Below are positions 6,223 to 56,880 of a DNA stretch of 64,000 nt, piece by piece. The notes below the pieces were generated by a model, which did not search any database, was not told the origin of the DNA, and saw only the letters and a list, made by a program, of their open reading frames with translations. This DNA comes from Neisseria zalophi. GTDB taxonomy: Bacteria; Pseudomonadota; Gammaproteobacteria; Burkholderiales; Neisseriaceae. The first letter of the stretch is position 1. Each line of letters begins with the position of its first letter. Where the stretch lies: assembly GCF_008807015.1 (NCBI RefSeq), contig NZ_CP031700.1, forward strand, positions 1,550,001 to 1,614,000, written 5' to 3'. A program made the translations under genes and the position numbers.

Positions 6223-6678
6223 ATGAAATATTTACTATTTTTACTGCTGATAAATATTACTTTTAATAGCGTATCTGCTCAAAACGAACACCAATTCTCA
6301 AATGACAAGGATACTATTAAAATGTCTACCCCTATATCAACTGGAAGTATCTATTTTTTAGATAAAAAAACACAAGTAAAATTGAAAAAACTAGCAGAAA
6401 AAGGAGATATCAATGCTGCCTTCCAACTATCTCAATACTTCACTTTAATTAATAAAAATAATGATGAAGCACTTAAATATTTACTTATTGGCGCCAGAAA
6501 TGGAGATGTACGTGCACAATACAGAGTTTCTCAGAGTTTTTTTAATAAGAAGTTATATAAAGAAGCTTTATTTTGGGCCCAGGAAGCTAAAAAAAACGGC
6601 ATTTCAAATTTAGACGAATTTATTGATCCGGATGAATTTATTGATGAAATAAAGTCAGAAATGAACAATCAAATATAG
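6223..6678 (+). CDS. Small exported Sel1-like protein, candidate immunity protein
   Basis: A 151-residue protein with a cleavable-looking signal peptide (hydrophobic 3-18, ending SVSAQ). After it comes a helical region with Sel1/TPR-like repeats: LKKLAEKGDINAAFQLSQYF, then YLLIGARNGDVRAQYRVSQSFF, then the ALFWAQEAKKNGI helix. It has low GC like the rest of the patch and a good AAAGGA ribosome site. Its place directly after a toxin C-terminal fragment is the usual place of an immunity gene, so protection against that toxin is inferred from context only. Sel1-like proteins also have many other roles. Confidence 0.6.
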   Translation: MKYLLFLLLINITFNSVSAQNEHQFSNDKDTIKMSTPISTGSIYFLDKKTQVKLKKLAEKGDINAAFQLSQYFTLINKNNDEALKYLLIGARNGDVRAQYRVSQSFFNKKLYKEALFWAQEAKKNGISNLDEFIDPDEFIDEIKSEMNNQI

Positions 6679-6745
6679 TTGTAAGCATAAATAAAAGAGT
6701 TAAATCAATCATTATATGTAGAAAATTGCTGTGTAGTTTACACAT

Positions 6746-6811
6746 TGGGTTGATAAAATAAGCCTCTAATACTTCAAAAGGCGTCAGCCCTTTAAGTGTT
6801 ACATATCGATC
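6746..6811 (-). mobile_element. Possible C-terminal scrap of a DDE transposase
   Basis: Read on the minus strand, this stretch encodes RYVTLKGLTPFEVLEAYF, resembling the very end of integrase-core transposases (R-Y-x-x-L...TP.E.LEA.F). No other part of such an element is visible. Tentative. Confidence 0.3.
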
Positions 6812-7398
6812 GTTACCGCCTCGACTACGACTGCCACCGCCAACCCCACTCTGCAAAACAACAGCAAACTAAACAATGTGTACGACAAAATCGGCAGACG
6901 CTTAAGCAAAGAAAGAACCGACAAAGACGCGTTACAATCCACCCATCCGAAGCGCACTCATTTTGTTTGGGATAGCAGCTGCCTGTTACAGGAATACATC
7001 TATAAAGGCAACTATACCTACATTTACACCGACCAAAATTCCTACGAACCTTTAGCACAGTTATTCTTTAACAATCAAGATGAGCAGCAATACCTAGCCT
7101 ATTTCCATAACGACAAAATCGGTATTCCTAGAGAAATGACAGGTCAGTTCGGTAATCTGTTATGGTATGGCAATACACCGCCTGGGGTAAACTTAATAAA
7201 GACGAACGGGTTTATCCACTCGTACATCAACTGTTTAGGCTTCAGAACCAGTATTGGGAACTATTATTGCTCATCAACAAATATTTTTTGGTAATCATAC
7301 AGCCACATCAGACCTTTCAAAAACTGAAAATTATGGTTGGTTTGATATATGAAGTAAAAGATGATAATTTATTAAGAGAAATCATTAATGAAAATTAG
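6802..7398 (+). pseudogene. rhs core fragment, frameshifted
   Basis: Remnant of an Rhs/YD-repeat polymorphic toxin. One frame gives YRLDYDCHRQP (about 6802-6850). A second (about 6850-7180) gives YDKIGRRLSKE, then FVWDSSCLLQEY, YTYIYTDQNSYEPLAQ and YLAYFHNDKIGIPREMT, the typical last YD repeats before the hypervariable tip. A third (7162 onward) gives YTAWGKLNKDERVYP and FRLQNQYWE. So there are probably two frameshifts. The usual G-L-x-Y-N-x-x-R-Y-Y-D-P / DPIGL core end is missing. A short foreign tail follows the break point. It cannot make an intact protein and is a decayed cassette donor or former rhs gene end. Confidence 0.75.
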
Positions 7399-7483
7399 AA
7401 AAATGATAAATATAGTTTATTTATAAGTAATTGCCAACAATGAGTAAATAAAGTAATGGAAGCATACAAAGTGGAGAGAAGCA

Positions 7484-8098
7484 ATGCTTATACTTATATT
7501 TGTATTATTAATAACTATTCTATTAATAATATATTTACTTAATAAAATATATTTTTTAATTATTATATTTTTATTGGCTATTGTTTTTGGTATTTTTTAC
7601 ACATCAAATTATAGAGATATAAATGGATTAACTTGGCTATTAATAGATGGTACAACTTATAAACAAAAAGTATCTAGTAACTTTAAATTCAAAAATAAAA
7701 ATTTAATAGCCATTGAATTCAATCGAAATATTATATATCAATTAAAATTTGAACTTTATCCATATAAATCAAATAAGAAAGATATTATAGAATTTGAAAA
7801 TATGATGAAACATATAAAAAATACAAAAATATATATGTATACAAAAAATTCTAATCAAATATATAAAAGTTTTCATCTGTATCAAAGTCAAAATACCTCA
7901 TGGAGTGCCGGGACAGTTATTTATCAAGATGACTCCCGTCAGCCATTTGTTATTGGTTTTGAATCTGAAAGTTTTTTTATACCACCCTCATTAAAACAAC
8001 AAAAAATTTATTTTAAGTTTGATATCAACAATAAAGAGGTATTAAATTATTTAAATAACAACAAAATAAAATTATCTATTATTCAAAAATCTTTATAG
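7484..8098 (+). CDS. Hypothetical membrane-anchored protein, candidate immunity protein
   Basis: A 204-residue protein of very AT-rich sequence. Two adjoining hydrophobic helices at the N-terminus (about 1-19 and 25-42) anchor it in the inner membrane. The remaining ~160 residues are polar and rich in Lys, Asn, Ile and Tyr, with the tract SWSAGTVIYQDDSRQPFVIG near 140-160. A GGAGAG ribosome site lies before the ATG. It follows the rhs pseudogene, so an immunity role is plausible by position, but no family was recognised. Confidence 0.5.
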   Translation: MLILIFVLLITILLIIYLLNKIYFLIIIFLLAIVFGIFYTSNYRDINGLTWLLIDGTTYKQKVSSNFKFKNKNLIAIEFNRNIIYQLKFELYPYKSNKKDIIEFENMMKHIKNTKIYMYTKNSNQIYKSFHLYQSQNTSWSAGTVIYQDDSRQPFVIGFESESFFIPPSLKQQKIYFKFDINNKEVLNYLNNNKIKLSIIQKSL

Positions 8099-8149
8099 TA
8101 GTTAATAAAAAACCTAAGCATAAAATCCTAAGGTAGTATACAGAACCAC

Positions 8150-8207
8150 AAGCACGTACGAGTTATCTCTCTCAAGGCAGTCTGAAACAAACCAACCCTT
8201 TCAGACG
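8150..8207 (+). repeat. Cassette-end degenerate repeat, copy A
   Basis: Core AAGCACGTACGAGTTATC followed by CTCTCAAGGCAGTCTGAAAC, which includes a one-base variant of the DUS. It is related to the copies at 8862-8925 and 9328-9392. Each copy lies just after a putative immunity gene. Confidence 0.55.
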
Positions 8208-8306
8208 GCCTCCTTTACAGCATTTACAACAGTACCGGCAGACCGTTTCAGCTAAACCTTCCATTCATCTGCCTCAACAACAGAGAGTATTCAAGCCATG
8301 CTTTAA
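8208..8306. other. Gene-free stretch with one DUS
   Basis: Contains one DUS in reverse orientation (8205-8217) and otherwise no open frame, repeat or RNA signal that I can support. It may be older cassette debris. Confidence 0.4.
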
Positions 8307-8444
8307 TATAAAATGCAAGATAGAGGAGTTATCCCTTATTTTATAGAAAACACAATTAAAACAGCTACCAAAAACCCTATTAGAGATGATTCAACCATTC
8401 ATTATGATAAAATCAACAAAATTATGGTAGTTACCAATAAATAA
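8307..8444 (+). pseudogene. Displaced toxin C-terminal fragment
   Basis: A short open frame with an ATG at 8313 and a stop at 8442. It encodes QDRGVIPYFIENTIKTATKN and then IHYDKINKIMVVTNK. The pattern RGI....VENTIK.G....YYD..N...V is common at the end of small RNase-like (RelE/colicin-fold) toxin tips of Rhs and related proteins. It precedes a small gene by 15 bases. It is probably an orphan toxin tip. The RNase assignment is tentative. Confidence 0.5.
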
Positions 8445-8459
8445 AAGATAAGGTTATAA

Positions 8460-8792
8460 TTGTTATACATAAAAGTAAATAATATGGTATTTGTTATAGA
8501 TAAATTTTTAACTGAAGCAAATAAAGCTAGTGAAAATCTTTTTTTATTTGCATCTTTTGTAAATAATACAGAATTTTTAATGAATTATATTGAGCGTAAA
8601 TATTTAAAAAATATTGACACAGATAAATATAAAAATTGCTGGGATGAGTTAGAAATTTTAAACGCATTAGCTTTGTCAGATTGGGAGGATGATGGAAAGC
8701 CTACTGACTGGCATAAGAAGTGGAAAAAATATTATCAAAAAGATGCAAAAAGTTTAATTTGTAATTTATTGAATATACTACATATGAATTAA
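8460..8792 (+). CDS. Small hypothetical protein, candidate immunity protein
   Basis: A 110-residue cytoplasmic protein without a signal peptide or membrane helix. The frame opens with TTG at 8460, about ten bases after a TAAGG ribosome site. An ATG at 8484 would give 102 residues (MVFVIDKFLT...). The middle is acidic (KNCWDELEILNALALSDWED), ending in a Trp/Lys-rich helix. It directly follows the toxin fragment at 8307-8444, in the immunity position. No named immunity family was recognised. Confidence 0.5.
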   Translation: MLYIKVNNMVFVIDKFLTEANKASENLFLFASFVNNTEFLMNYIERKYLKNIDTDKYKNCWDELEILNALALSDWEDDGKPTDWHKKWKKYYQKDAKSLICNLLNILHMN

Positions 8793-8861
8793 TGAATAAT
8801 TTTTCTAAGCCTGACAATATAAGCAAAACTTAAGTAAGCCTTAATTTGTATATAACCCTAC

Positions 8862-8925
8862 AGGTAATCGGGCATTTCAAGTACGTATATGTTATTCGCT
8901 CTCAATTCTACCCTTTCAGATGATC
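8862..8925 (+). repeat. Cassette-end degenerate repeat, copy B
   Basis: Aligns with copy C over CTACAGGTAATCGGGCATTT and AAGTACGTATATGTTATTCG, ending in a decayed DUS (TTTCAGATGATCTC). It lies after the 8460-8792 gene. Confidence 0.5.
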
Positions 8926-8942
8926 TCATATTTTATATAGCC

Positions 8943-9011
8943 TATAAAAATAATAATAAAGAAACCACTGGGGAAACTGGAAAAACTGATTCATATATAG
9001 GAAAAGGTTAA
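8943..9011 (+). pseudogene. Very short displaced toxin tail
   Basis: About 22 codons in one open frame ending TDSYIGKG at the TAA at 9009, three bases before the next start. It lies in the same relation to the Imm40-like gene as the other toxin scraps to theirs, so it is read as the last residues of a former toxin. The length alone is weak evidence. Confidence 0.35.
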
Positions 9012-9013
9012 AA

Positions 9014-9322
9014 GTGAATAATTTATTAAATATATATGTAAATTATGGTATAAGTTTGTATGACAAAGGAGAAAGTGTAATTATTCTGCCAAAAAACATT
9101 GCACTTATCGCTATAAATTATTACCTTGAACTAGGAATAATAATATTAGGCGGAGATATATATGAAAAAGTAGATGATAAAAATTTTAATCATACTTATG
9201 ACAACTGGTATTATGAGGGCAATTCATCTGCTGAAAGTATTATAAAAGCAAGGGGTTACTTGCAGTCATTTAATAATAAAAATGTATATGTCTCATTTGT
9301 TGTGAGGCTATGCAAGCCGTAG
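9014..9322 (+). CDS. Imm40-like immunity protein
   Basis: A 102-residue cytoplasmic protein started by GTG, with GAAAAGG seven bases upstream. The body shows NYGISLYDKGESVIILPKNI, then LGIIILGGDIYEKV, then YDNWYYEGNSSAESIIKARG. The order of an early Gly-rich turn, ILGGD-Y in the middle, then NWY and a final Ser/Ala helix matches my recollection of immunity family Imm40, which protects against cognate Rhs/CdiA-type toxins. It follows a toxin tail remnant, so here it survives as an orphan immunity gene. It may still protect against kin that keep the toxin. Confidence 0.65.
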   Translation: MNNLLNIYVNYGISLYDKGESVIILPKNIALIAINYYLELGIIILGGDIYEKVDDKNFNHTYDNWYYEGNSSAESIIKARGYLQSFNNKNVYVSFVVRLCKP

Positions 9323-29607: not shown

Positions 29608-29635
29608 TTAACAAAAAAAATTCATAGTGTATAAT
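29608..29635 (+). promoter_or_regulatory. Likely promoter of the helicase/PIN operon
   Basis: TTAACA (one mismatch to TTGACA) and TATAAT are separated by 16 bases, 31 bases before the helicase ATG. No other good promoter is seen inside the operon. Confidence 0.55.
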
Positions 29636-29666
29636 TTATCCAAATAAAAATATCATTGGAAAAATT

Positions 29667-32600
29667 ATGTCAATTGAAAATATAATAGTAGATTCTCATA
29701 CTCCCTACTCTAACAATCCTGATTCTCAAAATATATATTCTCAAGATAATAGAATTTATTGGAAATTACCTAGAGCTGAAAGTAATTTCTATAATTTGGA
29801 ACGTTTAGGTAAAAATATTTCGAGCGTACTCAAGAAATACAAACAACAATTTCCCGAGTTTGATCATAAAGATTATGAAGAAATTGCTACAGAATTTTGT
29901 GAACAATTCTTTCTTAATGACTTTGATGTCAATGTCTTTGCATATTTTTCAAATCTGTCTTTAAAAGATCAATCTGAAAAAAAGATAACTTTGGCGATTC
30001 GTATTCCTAATCATCCGATTTTTAATGAAAACCTATCTAAGAATATTGCTATTACAGTATTAGGACTCTGTCTTACTGATAAACCCAATCCAATTTTTAC
30101 GCCTCAAAGCATTGCTTTAACCTATGGAAAGCAAGGTCCTACTAATTATGAAAAAGAAAGTGAAGTACTTTTTCAAAAGCTTGATGAAGGAAAATTCCCT
30201 CCACGTAAAGCTAATAATGCTTTATCTTCTACTTTCTTAAAATCCTTACCAAAATTTGCAATAAGTGCGAAAGAACGCTTAGAAGCATGGAAAGAGTTTC
30301 TTATTTTTAAAGAAAATCTTATCAAACATAAAACACAAGGTGTTCGTTATTTAAAATGGAAGTTTCTTGAAAATTCTGAGCAATTAAAATTTGATGTAAT
30401 ATTTGAAAATCAGCAAGCCTTAAATTCTATAAAAAAAGCTTTTAGTCGACAAAATCTACATACTTTTGAGTTAAAAACATCTAGCGATCCTTATCGATTT
30501 ATTTTACCTAAAAATAATTCTAATAAATTAGATAATAGTTTTGGCAACTTTGGCCAGCTTGCCAATAATGGAATAAAAATTATTAAAAATAATAAACATC
30601 AATCCCATCACAAAGAAGAAGTAAGTTTTGATTTGGATACAGCAGTTTGGGCGGAACTTCTTGTTGATATATCAGAAGAGTTGAGCTACAAGCTCAGTCA
30701 AATTAATGAAGAGTTTATTGATGACAAAGAAAATGATAAGAAACTTGAAAAAATCAACAATCTTTTTAAAGCACTACCTGAAACAGGGTTTTTATCTATT
30801 TCCCTCATTGGTGATTTAGCTCTAATTGAACGTCATCGAAAAGCAGTAGAAAATTTAATACAAAATGAAAACTGCTATGCTCCTTATTTATCAAATTATC
30901 TATTTGATATTAAAAATGCCAATCAACCTGATCATATTCCTGAAATTACTGAATGGGAAAATAACACTCTAAACGATAAGCAGAAATCCGCCGTGCAAAA
31001 AATACTTGCCGCCCCTGATATTTGCTTAATCCAAGGGCCGCCCGGAACGGGAAAAACCACCGTAATTGCTGAGGCTTGTTTACAATTTGCCAAGCGAGGT
31101 GAAAAAGTATTATTAGCCAGCCAAGCACATGATGCTTTAGATAATGCCTTATCTCGTTTAAAAAATCATCCAAATCTAAAAGCTATCCGTTTATCTAAAA
31201 ATAACAATCGGATTTCAGATGAAGGTAAGGAGTTTACAGGTGAAAATGTATTAGCAAAACAATATACGGCTTTAAAAAACTATGTATCTGAAAAGTATCT
31301 ACTTCCCCAACAACAACTCCAAGAAAAAATCCACAAGCTTAAAGAGTGGTTGGAGCCTGCTCACTTTATAGTTGATGATAGAGAGAAACTACATATTCGA
31401 GATAAAGAACAGCAGAGGCAATTAGCTCAAACAGAAAAACAATTAGCCGAACTTAAAGAAGAATTTGAGCAAAAAAATAAAATTTTCAATCGCCAACAAC
31501 AAAATAATAGTAATTTAGAAAAATTAATTAATTTTTTGAAAAATGGTAATGATAGTATTGCTCAGTTAACTTTAGAAGTACCACAAGAAATTTTTTCTTT
31601 AGTAAAAAAACTATGTAACTTAGAAACAATAAAAATTGAACAGCAATATATCACTTTCAATATTTTTATGGATAGCCATGAAAATCAAATGGCTATTTTA
31701 CAAAATCTATATAAACGCTGGCTGTCAATCGACAACGCCATACCCCAAATGCAAGCAGATTTAGATCGAATTAGTCTTGGACAGGGCAAAACAGATATAA
31801 AAACAGTATTAAAACTTGAAGAATTAAAACAAGAAATTGATGAACTTGCAAAGAAAATAGATGATGATGACGATGATGGTAATCTTATAACATTATGGAA
31901 AAGTAAACGTAAAGAGTGTAGAGAATTAGAAAAAAGTATAAACTCAAACAATAAAATTAATAATCTAATTGGTGATTATTATAATTTATTTAGTGATAAA
32001 GATAACTTCTTAAATGGCAATAGTGATAATATAAAAATTTTATTGCAACAACGATTAGATAACATTATAAAAATAAAACAGGATATTGATTCTATTATAA
32101 ATAATACTATTGTTCAATTAAATCAACTTATAAAAATAGAAAATATAGAAAAGCCTAATGATGAAGAAATAAAACGACAAGAAACCATCGTAAAAAATAT
32201 AAAAAATGAACTAGAGAAAATTAAACAACAAATTAATAAAAAAAATAGTGAAGCCTCAGAATGGACTATAAAAGCAGAATTTGACAGCTCTATTGAATTT
32301 ACAAGTTTAGTTGAAGAGCAAAATCTTAATTTAAATAACTTACAAAATGAACTAAACAATATTCAACGGCAAAATAAAGATTTCCTACCTTTATTTAAAC
32401 AGTGGCAGGATATTCTAACAGATCCATTACAACGAGCAAAAGATGATTGGATTGAATTAGAACAAACTTATTTTGAAAGTTGTAATGTAGTGGCTATTTC
32501 TTGTAATGAAGATGAACGAACATTAACAAATAATAATTTTGATAGCTTTGATGTGGTTATTATTGATGAGGTCTCCAAAGCAACGCCTCTAGAATTACTA

Positions 32601-33656
32601 TTACCATTAATGCGCGCTCCAAAAGCAATTTTAGTAGGCGATCATCGTCAATTACCACCTATTTTCAACGAAGCTGACGGCTTGACTTTTGAAGATGAAG
32701 TTGAGAGGAATCAAGCGGATAAAGAAGAAGAAATAACAAATGTTAATACAGATGTCACCAAAGAGAATTTACGTAAATTTGAAAAGATGGTTACCGCTAG
32801 TTTGTTTAAAGAACTATTTGAGCAAGCACCTGAAAGCCTACGAGAACGATTAGATATTCAATTTCGCATGCATCCGGATATTATGAGGATGATTAATTAC
32901 TTTTATGAAAATAAATTAACTTGTGGAAATCCTGATTTACCGCGCCCACATAATTTAACTTTCATTACTGAAAATAATGATCGCCTTCTCAAAAAAGAAG
33001 ATCATCTTTTATGGGTTGATACTACAAATGATGAACATGGTAAAAAATATAAAATTGAGGATGGAGTTAATATTAATCGCCTTGAGGCCCGTCTAATAGC
33101 CAAGACTTTAATAGAAATTGATCGTCAAATACAAATAGAGGGTAAATATAATAAAGATAATAGGCTCAAAATAGGTGTGGTATCTTTTTATCAACCGCAA
33201 TGCCGTTTAATTCGTGACGAAATACGAAAAAATGTGCCAAATAAAAAAACATGGTTTACTGCTATTGATGTAGAAATTAATACAGTTATCCGTTATCAAG
33301 GTAAAGAAAAGCCAATTATTTTACTTAGCTTAGTTAAAAATAATGGCCGTGATCTCCATCAAAAATTTACGCGTGGTAGAGCTAATATCGCCCGTTTTGA
33401 ATTTATTAATGTAGCAATGAGTAGAGCTCAAAATCTATTAATAATATTTGGAGCAAGAAATATGCTAGAAAACAGAGAAGTAAAACTACCTAAAATGGAT
33501 GAACATAAGATTGAGAAAACAATGATCTATAAAAAAATGTTTAACTATTTAGAATATCAGGCAGATACTGGAAACTTAACTGAAACTCAACCTTTCTTTA
33601 ATGCTTTACAAAATACAATGAAAAAATTAAATGCTACAAAAGGGAATAACTCATGA
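29667..33656 (+). CDS. Large SF1 (DNA2/UPF1-like) helicase with coiled-coil insert
   Basis: A 1329-residue protein in the style of bacterial defence helicases. Residues 1-430 are an unrecognised N-terminal domain. A Q-motif-like LNDKQKSAVQKIL is followed by Walker A GPPGTGKT near 457-464. Residues about 530-910 are a long charged coiled coil inserted before motif II. Motif II is DEVSK (967-971), motif III GDHRQLPP (from 992), then QFRMHPDI (from 1065) and VAMSRAQN (1249-1256). It should use ATP to translocate on nucleic acid. It is first in the operon and overlaps the next gene by ATGA. No known defence family was matched with certainty. Confidence 0.85.
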   Translation: MSIENIIVDSHTPYSNNPDSQNIYSQDNRIYWKLPRAESNFYNLERLGKNISSVLKKYKQQFPEFDHKDYEEIATEFCEQFFLNDFDVNVFAYFSNLSLKDQSEKKITLAIRIPNHPIFNENLSKNIAITVLGLCLTDKPNPIFTPQSIALTYGKQGPTNYEKESEVLFQKLDEGKFPPRKANNALSSTFLKSLPKFAISAKERLEAWKEFLIFKENLIKHKTQGVRYLKWKFLENSEQLKFDVIFENQQALNSIKKAFSRQNLHTFELKTSSDPYRFILPKNNSNKLDNSFGNFGQLANNGIKIIKNNKHQSHHKEEVSFDLDTAVWAELLVDISEELSYKLSQINEEFIDDKENDKKLEKINNLFKALPETGFLSISLIGDLALIERHRKAVENLIQNENCYAPYLSNYLFDIKNANQPDHIPEITEWENNTLNDKQKSAVQKILAAPDICLIQGPPGTGKTTVIAEACLQFAKRGEKVLLASQAHDALDNALSRLKNHPNLKAIRLSKNNNRISDEGKEFTGENVLAKQYTALKNYVSEKYLLPQQQLQEKIHKLKEWLEPAHFIVDDREKLHIRDKEQQRQLAQTEKQLAELKEEFEQKNKIFNRQQQNNSNLEKLINFLKNGNDSIAQLTLEVPQEIFSLVKKLCNLETIKIEQQYITFNIFMDSHENQMAILQNLYKRWLSIDNAIPQMQADLDRISLGQGKTDIKTVLKLEELKQEIDELAKKIDDDDDDGNLITLWKSKRKECRELEKSINSNNKINNLIGDYYNLFSDKDNFLNGNSDNIKILLQQRLDNIIKIKQDIDSIINNTIVQLNQLIKIENIEKPNDEEIKRQETIVKNIKNELEKIKQQINKKNSEASEWTIKAEFDSSIEFTSLVEEQNLNLNNLQNELNNIQRQNKDFLPLFKQWQDILTDPLQRAKDDWIELEQTYFESCNVVAISCNEDERTLTNNNFDSFDVVIIDEVSKATPLELLLPLMRAPKAILVGDHRQLPPIFNEADGLTFEDEVERNQADKEEEITNVNTDVTKENLRKFEKMVTASLFKELFEQAPESLRERLDIQFRMHPDIMRMINYFYENKLTCGNPDLPRPHNLTFITENNDRLLKKEDHLLWVDTTNDEHGKKYKIEDGVNINRLEARLIAKTLIEIDRQIQIEGKYNKDNRLKIGVVSFYQPQCRLIRDEIRKNVPNKKTWFTAIDVEINTVIRYQGKEKPIILLSLVKNNGRDLHQKFTRGRANIARFEFINVAMSRAQNLLIIFGARNMLENREVKLPKMDEHKIEKTMIYKKMFNYLEYQADTGNLTETQPFFNALQNTMKKLNATKGNNS

Positions 33657-35671
33657 ATGAATACACACTAAGTCAACATTTTGTTGCATATCCAGTTTTT
33701 AATATCCGAGTAACTTATCGTTATCGTAAAGTTAGAAAACCTACTGTATTTGATAAGCTTATAATGAGTTTAGTTATGGACTTTCCACAGTTAAAGCAAA
33801 AATCATTAGGGGAAATTATTCAATCAATGCAGTTAGATGAGGTGTTTATTCGCAAGACTCTGGAAGATATGTTAGAAGCCGGATTGATTGAAGATATCGA
33901 TTTAGATAATGATCTAAACAATATTCAAATTGAAGAATTAATATTAACTAATCATGGTGAAAAATTTTTTAAAGAAAAAAAAATGATTAGCAGGAGAAAA
34001 TCAGCAAATGAAAATTTCTTTTTTAATCCTCTTATAAATGCTTATGAACAATTTCATAATATAAAAGATAATCAGATTGATATTAAATTAGATCATGAGC
34101 TTTTTACTCCGAATCAAGAGACTCTTACAAAACTTAGTATAAATAAAATGGCTGAGTTAAGTTGGGTTAAATCTGATATTGATCTCGAATCTAATGGCAT
34201 TGACAATAACATAGACATAGAACAAATTAAATGGAAAACAGCTAAAGTTAGTTTGGTATTAGATAATAACTATAATGTCACATTAAGATGTGATGATAAA
34301 TTATTTAAAAGCTGGTTAGATAATCGCTCATTGGATGTAATACATAATAAAATAATCAAACCAATTTTAGATAAAGCCGATAATATTATCGAACCTATTT
34401 TAAATAAAATAAAAATAGATAATTTAAATAACCTACTTTCTTTAGTGCTAGCGGATCAAAATACTGATTTAAAGCAATTAAAACAAACTGTACCAATTAA
34501 TTTTTCTAATGCACAAGAATTTAATAATCAAGCCCCTTATATCATACTCAATAATAATCATGATGAAGCAAAATTAAAGGATCAAATACTTAGTATTTCT
34601 TGTAATCAAGAATATGAAGAAACTATTACAAAAATATTCTGGGATCCATGTAGTTTCAATCTATTTTATGAGGAAATTGGTTATATTCCTGCATATTTTC
34701 ATCATCAAGAAATAAAATTGCCTGTACGTATTTTATCAAAAAATGAAAATAATCAGATAGCTGAGCTATCTGCATTAAATAATCCCAATTTCGATACTTT
34801 GGCTTTTATGGCCAATTATTTACCTTATAAGGAAATTATAGAAAAATTTCCTAAAATGGATATTTTAGAAGCTATATCATTTAAAGAACAATTTGAAAAA
34901 AATTGGAACAATAAAAAGTTTATTACAGGCTCTCCAGATATTTGGGCTGAAAAAATCAACTTACTAAATAATAATGACGAAATTGAAAAATTTACAAAAT
35001 TGTTTCCGAATATACCTTTAAGTTTATCAAAAATAAATGATAATTTACACAGCACACTAATAGATGAAGCATTTAAAAATCCAAAATCACAAATAGCTAA
35101 GACAGCTGAATTAAGCCATCTATTTAAACTAACCAATGAGTTATCTAAGTTTAATGATATAACTAGGATACAATTAAATTTAATTAACCAAGATACAATG
35201 AAAAAATTTATAGAATGGGAAAGTATAAAATTAGAGTTTAAACGTAAATATCCTAAAATTAATTCTATTGAATTAGATAAAAGAACACAAAATATAACTA
35301 ATTTTTATACAAAAATTAATGAGTTGTTTGAACCAATATCTCCCAATAAGAAATTTGCTGTATTAGATACAGACTTTATTCGAAAATATCCAGAAAAATT
35401 ATTTAATATTCAAAAGGATAGAATAGTTATTCTATCAAAAACAACGCTAGATGAATTAGATTATCAAAAAGAAAAAAGTCAAAAAGATATCTATGAAGCT
35501 AATAAAATTCTTAATAGCATTCAAACTGATAGTTTAGATCAAGAAATAAAGGATACTATAGAGGATATTGAAAATATTAATAATAAGATTAAAGAGTTTG
35601 AATCACAGATTCAAAACAAGCGATCAATTTTAGCATCATTAAAAAATCATAGCGAGAAAGAAAATGTCTAA
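33653..35671 (+). CDS. Unknown protein ending in the first half of a PIN nuclease domain
   Basis: A 672-residue protein. Residues 1-110 look like a winged-helix segment (DKLIMSLVMDFPQLKQ...LEDMLEAGLIEDI). The middle (110-560) is unrecognised. At 568-615 comes AVLDTDFIRKYPEKLF...ILSKTTLDELDYQK, the first half of a PhoH/Smg6-type PIN domain with acidic D572 and D574 and E601. A coiled coil then runs to the end. The second half of the PIN domain, with the other two acids, is in the next gene, which overlaps by eight bases. The pair likely forms one RNase in trans or by frameshift. Confidence 0.75.
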   Translation: MNEYTLSQHFVAYPVFNIRVTYRYRKVRKPTVFDKLIMSLVMDFPQLKQKSLGEIIQSMQLDEVFIRKTLEDMLEAGLIEDIDLDNDLNNIQIEELILTNHGEKFFKEKKMISRRKSANENFFFNPLINAYEQFHNIKDNQIDIKLDHELFTPNQETLTKLSINKMAELSWVKSDIDLESNGIDNNIDIEQIKWKTAKVSLVLDNNYNVTLRCDDKLFKSWLDNRSLDVIHNKIIKPILDKADNIIEPILNKIKIDNLNNLLSLVLADQNTDLKQLKQTVPINFSNAQEFNNQAPYIILNNNHDEAKLKDQILSISCNQEYEETITKIFWDPCSFNLFYEEIGYIPAYFHHQEIKLPVRILSKNENNQIAELSALNNPNFDTLAFMANYLPYKEIIEKFPKMDILEAISFKEQFEKNWNNKKFITGSPDIWAEKINLLNNNDEIEKFTKLFPNIPLSLSKINDNLHSTLIDEAFKNPKSQIAKTAELSHLFKLTNELSKFNDITRIQLNLINQDTMKKFIEWESIKLEFKRKYPKINSIELDKRTQNITNFYTKINELFEPISPNKKFAVLDTDFIRKYPEKLFNIQKDRIVILSKTTLDELDYQKEKSQKDIYEANKILNSIQTDSLDQEIKDTIEDIENINNKIKEFESQIQNKRSILASLKNHSEKENV

Positions 35672-36188
35672 GAAAAAAAGAAATAGAAATAAATTAAATC
35701 AAAATAACTCAACTCCATTAAACGTAAATGAAAATATAGCTATAAAACACAAGATACCAGAAATGGAAATGGAAATTTCAAAGTTAGAGCATGAAATTTC
35801 TAGTTTGCAAAATAAAATAGCTATGCTGAAAATTGAAAAAAACAATTTCAATAAAAAAAAGCAAGATGCAGAAAACAAACAAAAAAAACTACTCAAAGAC
35901 AAGAATCAACAACAACAACATATTGATTCCTTAAATAAGAAAGCTGCTGAAATCAGAGAGGCCATTCGAAAAATTGATGAATTAAAGTTGGCAACACACA
36001 CAGAAAACTCAAATTCTGAGTTACTAACAATACTACAACAATCAAATACTATGAAAACTCCAAATGGTGAAAACGATGACAAAACCTTAGCTGTAGCAGT
36101 ACGTTATAAATTAAACGATCTGATTTTTTATACAAATGATAAAAATTTAAAAAATAAGGCAACTAGTGTTGGTGTTAAAACTAGTTAA
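35664..36188 (+). CDS. Coiled-coil protein ending in the second half of a PIN domain
   Basis: A 174-residue protein. A basic N-terminus (KKKRNRNK) is followed by a long heptad-type coiled coil (about 30-115). The end carries NDDKTLAVAVRYKLNDLIFY then TNDKNLKNKATSVGVK. This is the C-terminal half of a PIN domain, with ND(D) at 137-139 and TND at 157-159 supplying the missing metal ligands. Alone it lacks the DTD and E positions, so it cannot be a full PIN nuclease. The start overlaps the upstream stop (ATGTCTAA), giving a +1 frame relation to that gene. Confidence 0.75.
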   Translation: MSKKKRNRNKLNQNNSTPLNVNENIAIKHKIPEMEMEISKLEHEISSLQNKIAMLKIEKNNFNKKKQDAENKQKKLLKDKNQQQQHIDSLNKKAAEIREAIRKIDELKLATHTENSNSELLTILQQSNTMKTPNGENDDKTLAVAVRYKLNDLIFYTNDKNLKNKATSVGVKTS

Positions 36189-36211
36189 TAAATAACCAAT
36201 AGGAATAAAAA

Positions 36212-37342
36212 ATGAGCGCAATTCATGAGAGACAATGGGCATTAGTTCGTGAACGTGAAATTCGAGAGGAAGCACATAAACAAAGATTAAAAGAAATTAA
36301 GAATCAAACTGAATTTTTTTTAAAAAAATATGAAAGCATATTAAATGAATTAGCAGAGGATGGACTAGAACAATATATTCCAAAAGAATGTGATCATGTA
36401 CGTAATGAAATTAATCGAATACGTAATAATATGGATGCTTTAGAAGGGCGGGAAGTCAGTCGTATTTTAGGCAATTTTGTTAGAACTCTACCACATCAAG
36501 CAAGAGAACAACATCGTATCGCTGAGGAATATCAACGATTAATACAAGAGGAAGCAAAATTAGAAGCTGAGCGGCAAGTAAAAAAAATACAAAAAGAACG
36601 TGAAATAATCTGGCAACAAGTTACATCCAATTGGCAAAACAAATTGGCTCGAAATTTGGCGTTTAAAAAACTTTATGAGCTAAAACAACAAGCCTTTTCT
36701 GAAAATTGGGATGGACAACAAATAACGGAAGCAGTTGATAAAATAAAACAAGAATCTGAACAACAAGCCATTGAAAATGAAAAAAATTTCATAAATGCAG
36801 TAAGAGGAGAAAATGAACAAAAACAAAAAGGTGAATTACTAAAAATAATTAAAACAACAAATTTACCAAAAGCGCAATCTACTCAATTGCAGCAGAAAAT
36901 CGAGCAAGCATCTGGTGAAAATTTAACTAAAATTGCCCAAGAAATTGATTTGGTACATGATGAAATTATAGAGAATGAAGACATCAGAAAAGAAATGGTA
37001 AAAGCTGTTTACCAAGCATTAAAACAAGCAGGATTTAATGTCCTCAACCCCATAAAACAAAAAAATGAAAATGGTGAGGAAATTGTTTTAGTTCAAGCTG
37101 CACGCCCTACCGGAAATCAAGCAAAATTTAGAATTAATTTAAATGGTTCAGTACGATATGAGTTTGATAACTATAAAGGTCAGCATTGTAAGGAAGATAT
37201 GCAAAAAGTTTTACCTAAGTTATCTGAAATTTATGGTGTAAATTTATCCAAAGAGCGAGTTATTTGGGAAAACCCAGATGATACAAAGATGGATGCAAAA
37301 CCAATTAACCCAATACAGACTAACAAAAATATAAAAAACTAA
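36212..37342 (+). CDS. Coiled-coil protein of the island, function unknown
   Basis: A 376-residue cytoplasmic protein, mostly charged helix (about 10-60, 100-190, 190-260). The small C-terminal domain (about 275-350) reads IVLVQAARPTGNQAKFRINL, then SVRYEFDNYKGQHCKEDMQK. The plan of beta strand, G-x-V-x-x-E, KG...C and a helix recalls the small DUF2997-like proteins that can occur beside AAA and 4Fe-4S genes, but this is a weak resemblance. An AGGAATA ribosome site lies before the ATG. It likely forms a scaffold with the neighbours. Confidence 0.65.
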   Translation: MSAIHERQWALVREREIREEAHKQRLKEIKNQTEFFLKKYESILNELAEDGLEQYIPKECDHVRNEINRIRNNMDALEGREVSRILGNFVRTLPHQAREQHRIAEEYQRLIQEEAKLEAERQVKKIQKEREIIWQQVTSNWQNKLARNLAFKKLYELKQQAFSENWDGQQITEAVDKIKQESEQQAIENEKNFINAVRGENEQKQKGELLKIIKTTNLPKAQSTQLQQKIEQASGENLTKIAQEIDLVHDEIIENEDIRKEMVKAVYQALKQAGFNVLNPIKQKNENGEEIVLVQAARPTGNQAKFRINLNGSVRYEFDNYKGQHCKEDMQKVLPKLSEIYGVNLSKERVIWENPDDTKMDAKPINPIQTNKNIKN

Positions 37343-37358
37343 TAATTAGAGACAAAAG

Positions 37359-39182
37359 ATGAATGAATATATTAGTAGTTGGCTAGAAAACTTTGAACGT
37401 CAAGTAATGATACGTCGTGCATTGATTATTAGTGGTAATATCATCGATTTTTCATTTAATCGTTATAACCGTTTGGTTCCTATTAATCAAGCAATAACAG
37501 ATAGTTTAAAAGCACAAGGATTTTCACATGTGGTCTTTTATTCTCGTTTATCTGGCGTATCAGGAGTTTCCACTGATGAGTGGAATAATCTTACACAAGC
37601 CATAATACAAGCTGAAGAAGGGGAAGACTATGATATAGAAAATATAGACAGCCCTACTTTATCTAATAATGCCCCAATAAGTACAGAAGATTTTTTTGCT
37701 ACTGTACAACAAGTGATGACTAATGATTCAAAGAAAGTTGCTTTTGTTGTTGATTGGTCTAATTATTTATTTGGGCAAGTAAATGCATTAAGTGACGCAG
37801 AAAGAGCTTGGTTACAACAAATCTCTACAAGTTTACGCGATGCAGAGCAACCTAATTCTCCAGAAGCAATGGATAACCCACAAAGTATATTAATATTTCT
37901 TTGCTCAGGAAATATATCTTTACCTCCATCTATTTATTTAAATAATCCATTATTTGCTGAAATTAGTATCCCTCTGCCAACTATGCAAGAACGTGAGGAA
38001 GCAATTTTAGCTAAACAATATCATTTTAATTTACAAGAAACGTTAGATCGTGGAAGTAAAGCGCTAGCGGATTTTGTAACCTTAACGGATACACTTACAT
38101 TACGAGATATTGATAATCTTGTTCGTTTATCTCGTCAACAACGGTCTCCTTTGATTTTACAAAACCTGATTTCTCTTTATCGTTATGGTAAACGTCAATC
38201 TCCTTGGGAAAAGCTTAATTATAAACGCTTGAAAGAAGCAAAAAATATACTGGAGCACCGTGTAAAAGGACAAGAACACGCAATTGACGCAGTAAATAAA
38301 ATATTAATTCGTGCATATACTGGTTTATCAGGTTTACAACACTCTACCAAAGCCCGTACACCCAAAGGCACATTATTTTTTGTTGGCCCAACCGGCGTTG
38401 GTAAAACAGAATTGGCAAAATCATTAGCACAATTTTTATTCGGAGACGAAGATGCTTGTATCCGTTTTGATATGTCAGAATTTAATCATGAACATGCAGA
38501 TCAAAGATTAATTGGTGCTCCTCCTGGGTATGTTGGATTTGAAGAAGGAGGACAATTAACTAATGCGGTTAAAGCCCGCCCCTTTTCTTTATTATTATTT
38601 GATGAAATTGAAAAAGCACACCCGCGTATTCTCGATAAATTTTTACAAATTTTAGAAGATGGTCGGCTAACTGATGGTAAAGGAGAAACTATTTCTTTTG
38701 CCGATACTTTCATTGTATTTACTTCTAATATTGGTGCATCAGAAGTTCAACCAGGAGAGCCTCAAAGTGTTGCAGAACAATTTAAACAATTGGTACAAGA
38801 ACACTTTAGAAATAAACTTAACCGCCCCGAACTACTAGGTAGAATTGGAGAAGCAAATATTATTCCATTTAATTTCATACAAGATACTAATGTACTTAAA
38901 TCTATTGCCAGAGCCAAACTACAACCATTAAATGAGCGCTTAAAAGAAAAATGGAATATTGATAGCCTTGAATTTGAAGATGAAGACCGGGCATTAGAAT
39001 CTTTGGTAAGTCAGGTGAACCAACAACATGGTGGACGAGGAGTATTAAATGTATTAACTAAGTCATTATTTGATCCACTAGCAGAGTTTCTATTTGAGGA
39101 AAGTGAAAATCCTCAACCATTATATGGAAAAACACTCTATGTAGTACAAGCAGGGAAAACTTTTGATTTTGAAATTAAATAA
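37359..39182 (+). CDS. ClpB-like AAA+ ATPase with degenerate first module
   Basis: A 607-residue protein. The C-terminal AAA+ domain is of the Clp/Hsp100 D2 type: Walker A GPTGVGKT (343-350), FDMSEFNHEHADQRLIGAPP, pore-loop-like GYVGFEEGG, Walker B LLFDEIEKAHP (D415, E416), sensor FIVFTSNIGA, and a C-terminal lid. Residues 1-290 look like a second AAA module that has lost Walker A: ALIISGNIIDF at the P-loop place, VAFVVDWSN at the B place, and a lid-like helix bundle with IPLPTMQEREEAIL. It likely remodels protein or nucleoprotein complexes together with the operon partners. Not a normal ClpB, since the Clp-N domain is absent. Confidence 0.8.
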   Translation: MNEYISSWLENFERQVMIRRALIISGNIIDFSFNRYNRLVPINQAITDSLKAQGFSHVVFYSRLSGVSGVSTDEWNNLTQAIIQAEEGEDYDIENIDSPTLSNNAPISTEDFFATVQQVMTNDSKKVAFVVDWSNYLFGQVNALSDAERAWLQQISTSLRDAEQPNSPEAMDNPQSILIFLCSGNISLPPSIYLNNPLFAEISIPLPTMQEREEAILAKQYHFNLQETLDRGSKALADFVTLTDTLTLRDIDNLVRLSRQQRSPLILQNLISLYRYGKRQSPWEKLNYKRLKEAKNILEHRVKGQEHAIDAVNKILIRAYTGLSGLQHSTKARTPKGTLFFVGPTGVGKTELAKSLAQFLFGDEDACIRFDMSEFNHEHADQRLIGAPPGYVGFEEGGQLTNAVKARPFSLLLFDEIEKAHPRILDKFLQILEDGRLTDGKGETISFADTFIVFTSNIGASEVQPGEPQSVAEQFKQLVQEHFRNKLNRPELLGRIGEANIIPFNFIQDTNVLKSIARAKLQPLNERLKEKWNIDSLEFEDEDRALESLVSQVNQQHGGRGVLNVLTKSLFDPLAEFLFEESENPQPLYGKTLYVVQAGKTFDFEIK

Positions 39183-39191
39183 GGTAAACAA

Positions 39192-39776
39192 ATGCACTGG
39201 TTAAACATTGCTAAAATATTAGCAGCAACCGAAGCAGAAGGGCCAGGATTACGATTTGTAATTTGGGTGCAAGGGTGTTTAAAACGCTGTATCGGTTGTT
39301 GTAATGGAGATTTGTTAAAAATAAAACCTGTACATATATGTCGTTCAAATGAAATTATAATGAAATTAATAGAATCTAAAAAACAATATCCTTTAGAAGG
39401 ATTAACTTTCTTAGGTGGAGAGCCAATGCTACAAGCTGATGGTTTGGCAGATATAGCTGAAGCAGCTCAGAATCTAGGATTATCAGTTATTTGTTTTTCA
39501 GGCTATCAAAAATATGAGTTAATTGAAGAACAATTCATAGGTTCTCAAAGATTATTAGCTGCTACTGATTTGTTAATTACAGGAGAGTTCGACCAAACAA
39601 AAACTGAAACCATTAGAAATTGGGTAGGTTCTACTAATCAACAATTCCATTATTTGACAGATCGTTATAATGTTGAAATTGAGACAAGACCATTAACTGT
39701 AACCAATGAATGGCGAATTAATTTAGATAATAAAATTGTTGGAAATGGATTACCATTTGAAATAACTATGAAATAA
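39192..39776 (+). CDS. Radical-SAM activase-like protein (4Fe-4S single cluster)
   Basis: A 194-residue protein with GLRFVIWVQGCLKRCIGCCN: the CxxxCxxC cluster ligands are C29, C33 and C36, set in the W-x-Q-G-C context of NrdG-type activating enzymes. GGEP (about 76-79) is the SAM-binding motif. It should cleave S-adenosylmethionine to make a 5'-deoxyadenosyl radical. Yet no glycyl-radical enzyme is encoded in the operon, so the target is unknown. It follows the AAA+ gene by nine bases and is the last gene of the island. Confidence 0.85.
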   Translation: MHWLNIAKILAATEAEGPGLRFVIWVQGCLKRCIGCCNGDLLKIKPVHICRSNEIIMKLIESKKQYPLEGLTFLGGEPMLQADGLADIAEAAQNLGLSVICFSGYQKYELIEEQFIGSQRLLAATDLLITGEFDQTKTETIRNWVGSTNQQFHYLTDRYNVEIETRPLTVTNEWRINLDNKIVGNGLPFEITMK

Positions 39777-39814
39777 ATTCTATATACTTTCAACATCAAT
39801 TTTAATTCCCAATA

Positions 39815-39852
39815 AAAATAAGGCTGTCTCAAAATTCAGATAGCCTTATTTT
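39815..39852. terminator. Terminator at the right edge of the island
   Basis: AAAATAAGGCT and AGCCTTATTTT pair, extended by TCT/AGA. A and T runs flank it, so it can serve both the island and the minus-strand ssb. The arms resemble a decayed inverted DUS pair. Confidence 0.8.
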
Positions 39853-56097: not shown

Positions 56098-56880
56098 ATG
56101 ACTCTAAATAAAGAAAATTTATATCAGATATATCAAAATAATCTTCTTGGCGCAGAAAATCAGTTATCTATTATTGAAGAGATTTGCAAACAAAAGAGAG
56201 CGCAATATTATATCTCTAAATGTGAAAAACATGCTGCTAATGATTATATTTCTAGTACAAGACTATATGCTTTATTACTAGCCAATTGGTTTGAAGTTAA
56301 ATTATTTAAAATAATTAATGAAAACTCTAGTGCTGCTTTTAAGCCAAATGAGGTAGAACAAATACAAGAATGTAGATCTATTTCAGAAAAGTGGCAAGCT
56401 ACATATAAAATTTCAATAGAAAAAATTATGCAGAAAGGGTTAAATAATTTTGATAATATAAATATTCAGGATCTCTCTAATATATTTCAGTCAGATTATT
56501 TTATTGAAATAGAAAATTTAATTCAAATTAGAAATAAACTAGCACATGGGCAATGGAACATTCAACTAAATCATAAACAAACAAATATTAATAATTCACT
56601 TAAATTTCTTGATAAATATCAATCCTATTCACATCTTAAATTATTAAGAAGTAAACTAGAAAAAATATCAAAGATAATTGAAACTATAGTTATATATAAA
56701 GATAAAGAAAATAAAAATTTTAGTAAAATCTTAAATAAACTTAAAAATGAAATTGATAATATTGATTCAAGACTAAACAACATTAATGATGAAAAAAACT
56801 CTCAAACCAAAATCAATCAATTATTAAAAATAAAGAGTATTACTAAAAATTATTATAATCAAAAAAGAGCAACTAAATAG
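56098..56880 (+). CDS. HEPN-type protein, candidate RNase toxin
   Basis: A 260-residue, AT-rich, helical protein. Residues 140-153 (NLIQIRNKLAHGQW) hold the HEPN signature R-x4-H (R145, H150), which forms the RNA-cleaving site in HEPN dimers. The first half has the long helices expected of a HEPN fold (LYALLLANWFEVKLFKII). The C-terminal 100 residues are a Lys/Asn-rich coiled coil. There is no strong ribosome site, so translation may be limited by the leader hairpin. It is isolated between dapC and guaA, with the tRNA-like element before it. A toxin or phage-defence RNase is inferred, not shown. Confidence 0.65.
   Translation: MTLNKENLYQIYQNNLLGAENQLSIIEEICKQKRAQYYISKCEKHAANDYISSTRLYALLLANWFEVKLFKIINENSSAAFKPNEVEQIQECRSISEKWQATYKISIEKIMQKGLNNFDNINIQDLSNIFQSDYFIEIENLIQIRNKLAHGQWNIQLNHKQTNINNSLKFLDKYQSYSHLKLLRSKLEKISKIIETIVIYKDKENKNFSKILNKLKNEIDNIDSRLNNINDEKNSQTKINQLLKIKSITKNYYNQKRATK

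Follow-up and report, generated by a model that had tools for sequence, protein, structure and literature searches.

A mobile five-gene set of helicase, PIN, coiled-coil, AAA and radical-SAM proteins, with a split PIN gene in Neisseria zalophi and a possible role in defence

Introduction

In a 64,000-nucleotide stretch of Neisseria zalophi contig NZ_CP031700.1 (hereafter, the window), a compact run of genes brings together a helicase, PIN-domain proteins, an AAA protein and a radical-SAM protein. Do these genes constitute one system, does this system exist elsewhere, and what might it do? UPF1 helicase and EST1A/SMG6 PIN nuclease act in eukaryotic RNA decay. The radical-SAM enzymes known from immunity are chiefly viperins, which make modified nucleotides. 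The constant pairing of a NrdG/PflA-activase-type enzyme with a helicase and an RNase and with a ClpB-type ATPase would suggest protein modification as one way of controlling bacterial immunity.

Results and Discussion

Organization of the locus

The features of the locus are collected in Table 1. The six island ORFs are all on the plus strand, within 10.2 kb, and the junctions between successive ORFs are -4, -8, +23, +16 and +9 bases. These data agree with the operon proposed in the initial annotation, but its six genes represent five components, the PIN gene being split. The proposed single promoter coincides with the top consensus match of the region, but promoter scans of the region gave no excess over shuffled sequence. 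The terminator-like repeat was absent from the output of the consensus scan, and no Rfam families were found within the island region.

Table 1. Coordinates of the features of the locus in the window
Feature	Position	Strand	Description
Promoter-like site TTAACA-16-TATAAT upstream of gene 1	29608..29635	+	consensus match only, 11/12
Gene 1	29667..33656	+	SF1/UPF1-like helicase, 1329 aa; MkoA-like
Gene 2	33653..35671	+	MkoB-like N-terminus, middle region, N-terminal half of PIN domain ending in coiled coil
Gene 3	35664..36188	+	coiled coil, then C-terminal half of the PIN domain begun in gene 2
Gene 4	36212..37342	+	helical/coiled-coil protein, conserved C-terminal domain, DUF2997-like
Gene 5	37359..39182	+	AAA protein: degenerate first AAA-like region (inferred) and ClpB-type D2
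Gene 6	39192..39776	+	NrdG/PflA-like radical-SAM protein
Terminator-like inverted repeat 3' of the operon, AGGCTGTCT...AGATAGCCTTATTTT	39820..39852	+	read from sequence

The island is AT-rich and free of DUS, as had been annotated: its GC content is 0.298, against 0.449 in the remainder of the window, and the DUS core GCCGTCTGAA, present 61 times in the window, is absent from the island, where ~11.6 copies are expected (Poisson ~1e-5). Insertion between core genes had also been suggested; a DnaJ-domain gene upstream and ssb downstream are indeed the neighbours here, but in congeners carrying both on one contig the two genes are far apart, and no empty site was identified. The direct repeats at the edges are short and AT-rich, hence no target-site duplication is claimed. 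Gene 4 had no match in 148 related genomes, nor among 398 genomes of the phylum, which marks the island as foreign DNA in this lineage.

A five-gene set conserved in other genomes

The genes co-occur elsewhere in a fixed order, a point on which the initial annotation had made its proposal depend. The order UPF1-like helicase, PIN protein, coiled-coil gene 4, ClpB-D2-type AAA protein and NrdG-like radical-SAM protein is intact in 25 loci besides the window, on plasmids, chromosomes and one viral contig (five plasmids, 18 species-genome loci, one contig of a viral collection and one genome from the taxonomic order of the window strain). A tblastn search of plasmids with gene 4 retrieved ten records, and the five plasmids examined (from Acinetobacter, Photobacterium, Moellerella, Polaromonas and Leisingera) all have this order. 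The scan of ~85,000 species genomes yielded 24 loci. In 18 of them all five genes are intact and in order; contig ends truncate two more, three are degraded, and in the remaining one, the Thermoguttaceae locus L031, genes 4-6 occur in a different setting. Both scans relied on short conserved patterns or samples and the locus count is a lower bound. The hosts are Gammaproteobacteria, Betaproteobacteria, Alphaproteobacteria, Bacillota and one Lentisphaerae MAG. The unsplit PIN protein is encoded by one gene, with about 620-820 residues, and, as judged by comparison of the sequences, the system is a set of five genes of which the six ORFs of the window are a version with a split PIN gene.

The degraded loci belong to two Helicobacter species and to one Pseudoalteromonas MAG, in which the helicase is broken. 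The former are H. suis (L012) and H. cynogastricus (L023); in H. cynogastricus most of the AAA gene has been lost and its end is joined to gene 4.

A description of the five-gene set was found neither among named systems nor in the mostly open-access literature searched; the papers found there that deal with PLuB, TerY, DUF2997 or radical-SAM proteins together with PIN, AAA or helicase proteins do not describe it. A radical-SAM protein mentioned in PMC7159879 belongs to a vWA-MoxR system, not to this set. The set is real, coherent and mobile, and apparently undescribed as a set. The combination was unrecognised in the initial annotation, and in this sense it remains so, but two of its parts have named relatives: MkoA for the helicase and MkoB for the N-terminal part of the PIN protein (see below).

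Shared history and genomic neighbourhood

Across 25 loci, the pairwise-identity matrices of the helicase, gene 4, AAA and radical-SAM proteins correlate at 0.96-0.99, and in a permutation test of the distance correlations 0 of 999 permutations were as high. The genes of the set share one history. Their flanks contain mobility genes (integrases, transposases, resolvases and TnsA-like genes, with a recombinase gene adjoining locus L007), a DarT-family gene and defence genes (BrxL, type I restriction genes, DrmD, JukA and candidate defence families), the latter listed as present and not as an enrichment. The Lentisphaerae MAG locus is 86-94% identical to Rhodoferax and may be mis-binned; we therefore do not count it by itself as evidence of transfer.

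Further radical-SAM genes are located beside 13 loci (L002, L003, L011, L013, L014, L015, L017, L018, L019, L022, L026, L028 and L029), mostly 0.1-3.2 kb from the operon and in some cases with JmjC_2 cupin and LRR genes. They are a possible accessory module, which the window does not have.

The helicase and the kinship to Mokosh

The annotated SF1 helicase, ClpB-like ATPase and radical-SAM protein were all recovered by domain searches. In the helicase, Pfam AAA_11 (2.8e-38) and AAA_12 (1.1e-33) are matched, as are DNA2/SMUBP2/UPF1 in the PDB; it has a Walker A (QGPPGTGKT), a LVGDHRQLPP motif and a long coiled-coil insert, and the helicase motifs are kept in 29 loci. It also matches PADLOC MkoA (9.8e-98), although partially, over the helicase core and part of the flanks. 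Residues 11-280 of gene 2 match positions 8-276 of the 610 of PADLOC MkoB (1.3e-9). This match of the PIN-protein N-terminus was found in five loci, the window and four others, and several relatives' PIN proteins gave no MkoB match.

As in Mokosh type I, the protein encoded after the UPF1-type helicase has an MkoB-like N-terminus, and both systems have a nuclease theme. In contrast to Mokosh type I, for which NERD/PLD domains are listed (PMC10952713), the five-gene set has a PIN, or a HEPN-like, end and adds three constant genes, including those for the AAA and radical-SAM proteins; Pfam gave no NERD or PLD-like match in any of the six window proteins. Since the set has neither a full-length MkoB match nor NERD/PLD, the features tested place it outside Mokosh; by sequence similarity, some of its parts derive from Mokosh or have an ancestor in common with it. 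The matches to PLuB, PDC-S37, GajB and JetC reflect generic helicase, AAA or coiled-coil similarity, and so does that to PDC-M37, whose protein B was matched over the AAA domain only (residues 285-462).

A PIN domain divided between two genes

Two proteins were proposed to share one PIN domain and this is what we observed. The PIN_4 scores are 20.1 bits for gene 2, just under the cut-off of 21.9, and 22.1 bits for gene 3. Alignment to unsplit relatives places the first half of the domain at the end of gene 2 and the second half in gene 3; the four PIN catalytic acids are all kept, D and E in gene 2 and D and D in gene 3, and the PIN fold with the four acids is obtained only from the two chains together. 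The start of gene 3 overlaps the stop of gene 2 by 8 bases. Between the acid pairs there are ~150 extra residues, forming coiled coil on either side of the break, which are present in no relative. A split PIN was found in one otherwise intact locus only, that of the window.

A chain of the joined halves was built with a one-base shift at the overlap, for modelling only. AlphaFold predicted a PIN fold from which a long coiled-coil arm extends (mean pLDDT 85.8); the arm is composed of helices 99-150 and 161-247, with low confidence in the loop between them. The chain break, at residue 142 of the joined model, falls in the last turns before the tip of the arm, a position at which a cut should still allow the halves to come together, and from the model we infer that they may form one active site. 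With this model, Foldseek retrieved PIN nucleases (Nob1, VapC and EST1A) as well as coiled-coil hairpins, none of them with a strong E-value; the rmsd to Nob1 is 2.4 A over 83 columns. The split PIN protein, if working, would be a natural example of a two-part nuclease.

At the position of the PIN protein, locus L007 has a protein without PIN, ending in RNSLIH, which corresponds to the HEPN-type RX4H pattern; Pfam gave no scored HEPN match in this protein. If the reading of this motif as that of a HEPN-like RNase is right, the RNase would be exchangeable, and the constant part would be composed of the helicase, the gene 2 N-terminus, gene 4, the AAA protein and the radical-SAM protein.

Gene 4 and its putative radical-SAM partner

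In the model of gene 4, the first 270 residues are helical and the C-terminal domain is beta-rich; a Foldseek search with this model returned nothing below E 0.001. The C-terminal domain has invariant G-x10-G-x2-C and W-x-NPD motifs (alignment of 28 sequences). Three of the four gene 4 members tested gave matches to DUF2997 (PF11211), at 13.2-15.1 bits against a gathering score of 24.1 (E 0.02-0.08), and all these weak matches fall in the C-terminal domain region. Profile comparison by hhalign gave E 0.0094 and a probability of 4%, and the G, G and C of gene 4 recur at identical spacing in three DUF2997 proteins.

Gene 6 matches Fer4_12 (7.5e-29; 101 bits, cut-off 22), and its CxxxCxxC (GCLKRCIGC) and GGEP motifs are conserved in 31 loci. 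Although it has the CxxxCxxC radical-SAM core of the Fer4_12 family in common with the NrdG/PflA activases, it scores 83.7 bits against curated NrdG, under the cut-off of 126.1, and its constant partner is gene 4 instead of ribonucleotide reductase. Genes for an AAA protein, DUF2997 and a similar radical-SAM protein are found together on Paenibacillus and Paenarthrobacter plasmids. These DUF1257-DUF2997-AAA-radical-SAM operons (e.g., Paenibacillus polymyxa and Paenarthrobacter plasmids) have the same G-x10-G-x2-C spacing and a related radical-SAM protein, but another AAA family and no helicase or PIN protein annotated adjoining. Based on the DUF2997 matches, the shared G/G/C spacing and these operons, we propose that the radical-SAM protein may modify the C-terminal domain of gene 4.

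The AAA protein and related modules

Gene 5 matches AAA_2 (5.8e-51), and its residues 290-582 correspond to ClpB D2 (ClpB residues 555-834 only). The GPTGVGKT, DEIEKAH and RPELLGRIG motifs are intact, and the Walker A, Walker B and arginine-finger region are kept in 30 loci. It shares the D2 ATPase domain with the ClpB/ClpA disaggregases but lacks a match to the ClpB N-domain, its first half is not a recognised D1, and it scores 269.9 bits against full-length curated ClpB, for which the cut-off is 1232.1. A tblastn search of plasmids with this first half retrieved the same ten records as gene 4: this half is specific to the five-gene system.

Locus L031 has genes 4, 5 and 6 in the same order and an MkoA-like helicase nearby, but phosphosignalling genes in place of a PIN protein: genes 4-6 are followed by a vWA gene, a further gene, PP2C, a kinase and the MkoA-like helicase (L031:9158-19915). 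More distant AAA genes (36-39% identity) lie beside a radical-SAM gene in other settings (L096:6560-10388 and L100:7810-10579), and constitute a wider AAA/radical-SAM pairing.

Proposed function and alternatives

Defence is, in our view, the most likely role of the five-gene set and a fairly probable one, because of its mobility, its defence-gene neighbours, its RNase effectors and its kinship to Mokosh. With moderate confidence, we favour an immune system of five components that moves horizontally, is related to Mokosh and acts by destroying RNA. The detailed mechanism is much less certain. The UPF1-like helicase would both sense foreign transcripts or replication intermediates and act as the motor on them, and the MkoB-like PIN protein, docked on it, would be the RNase effector (with a HEPN-like end in one relative). 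Gene 4 would act as a scaffold, whose DUF2997-like end would be the radical-SAM substrate, with the invariant G-x2-C as candidate site, and the ClpB-type AAA ring may remodel this scaffold or the effector complex as an on/off switch. In the window strain, the PIN active site would be put together from two chains, with the gene split near the tip of the coiled-coil arm. A more specific version, in which the radical-SAM-modified scaffold licenses the helicase-guided RNase and the window nuclease is a split enzyme joined by an antiparallel coiled coil, is speculative and taken as a whole unlikely.

The same components could instead form an RNA-surveillance or stress-response island, in which helicase and PIN protein clear stalled or damaged RNA under redox- or stress-dependent control by the AAA and radical-SAM proteins. 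The resemblance of a UPF1/SMUBP2/DNA2-like helicase and a PIN nuclease to eukaryotic RNA decay, with the EST1A PIN among the Foldseek matches, speaks for it, and the AAA/radical-SAM module also adjoins vWA, PP2C and kinase genes, which suggests general signalling and counts against an immune role. Nevertheless, the set is rare and patchy (0 of 148 relatives; 24 loci in the species genomes scanned) and plasmid-borne, with defence and mobile genes adjoining, and we regard this alternative as somewhat unlikely. That the locus is simply Mokosh type I with accessory genes is quite improbable: the MkoA match and the MkoB match, the latter also in four other loci, point to it, but the MkoB match ends at about 280 of 610 positions, NERD/PLD is in none of the six proteins and the three additional genes are constant across the set.

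The main alternative to a working split PIN enzyme is a recent frameshift, which would have broken the PIN gene and left genes 2 and 3 as fragments, with the system dead or phase-off in this N. zalophi strain. The PIN protein is a single gene in every intact relative, the frames of genes 2 and 3 are jointly open only over 35643-35671, where one indel would restore a single PIN frame, and broken loci are present in the two Helicobacter genomes. We take this explanation seriously but lean against it for several reasons. All four acids are kept, one pair per half, and GC by codon position looks like that of coding DNA both before and after the break. Gene 3 possesses a start of its own with a weak GAG-type SD, overlapping ATGTCTAA. 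The modelled hairpin is interrupted near its tip, where a cut would be tolerated, and the other operon genes are open. For the favoured immune reading, the loci listed here include plasmid-borne, intact operons ready for testing.

Other AT-rich regions of the window

Beside guaA, a lone AT-rich gene (56098-56880; 26% GC) has a weak HepT-like match and a RNKLAH motif, and possibly encodes an orphan HEPN RNase. Another AT-rich stretch (6223-9322) contains small ORFs, one of which resembles an RHS-repeat fragment.
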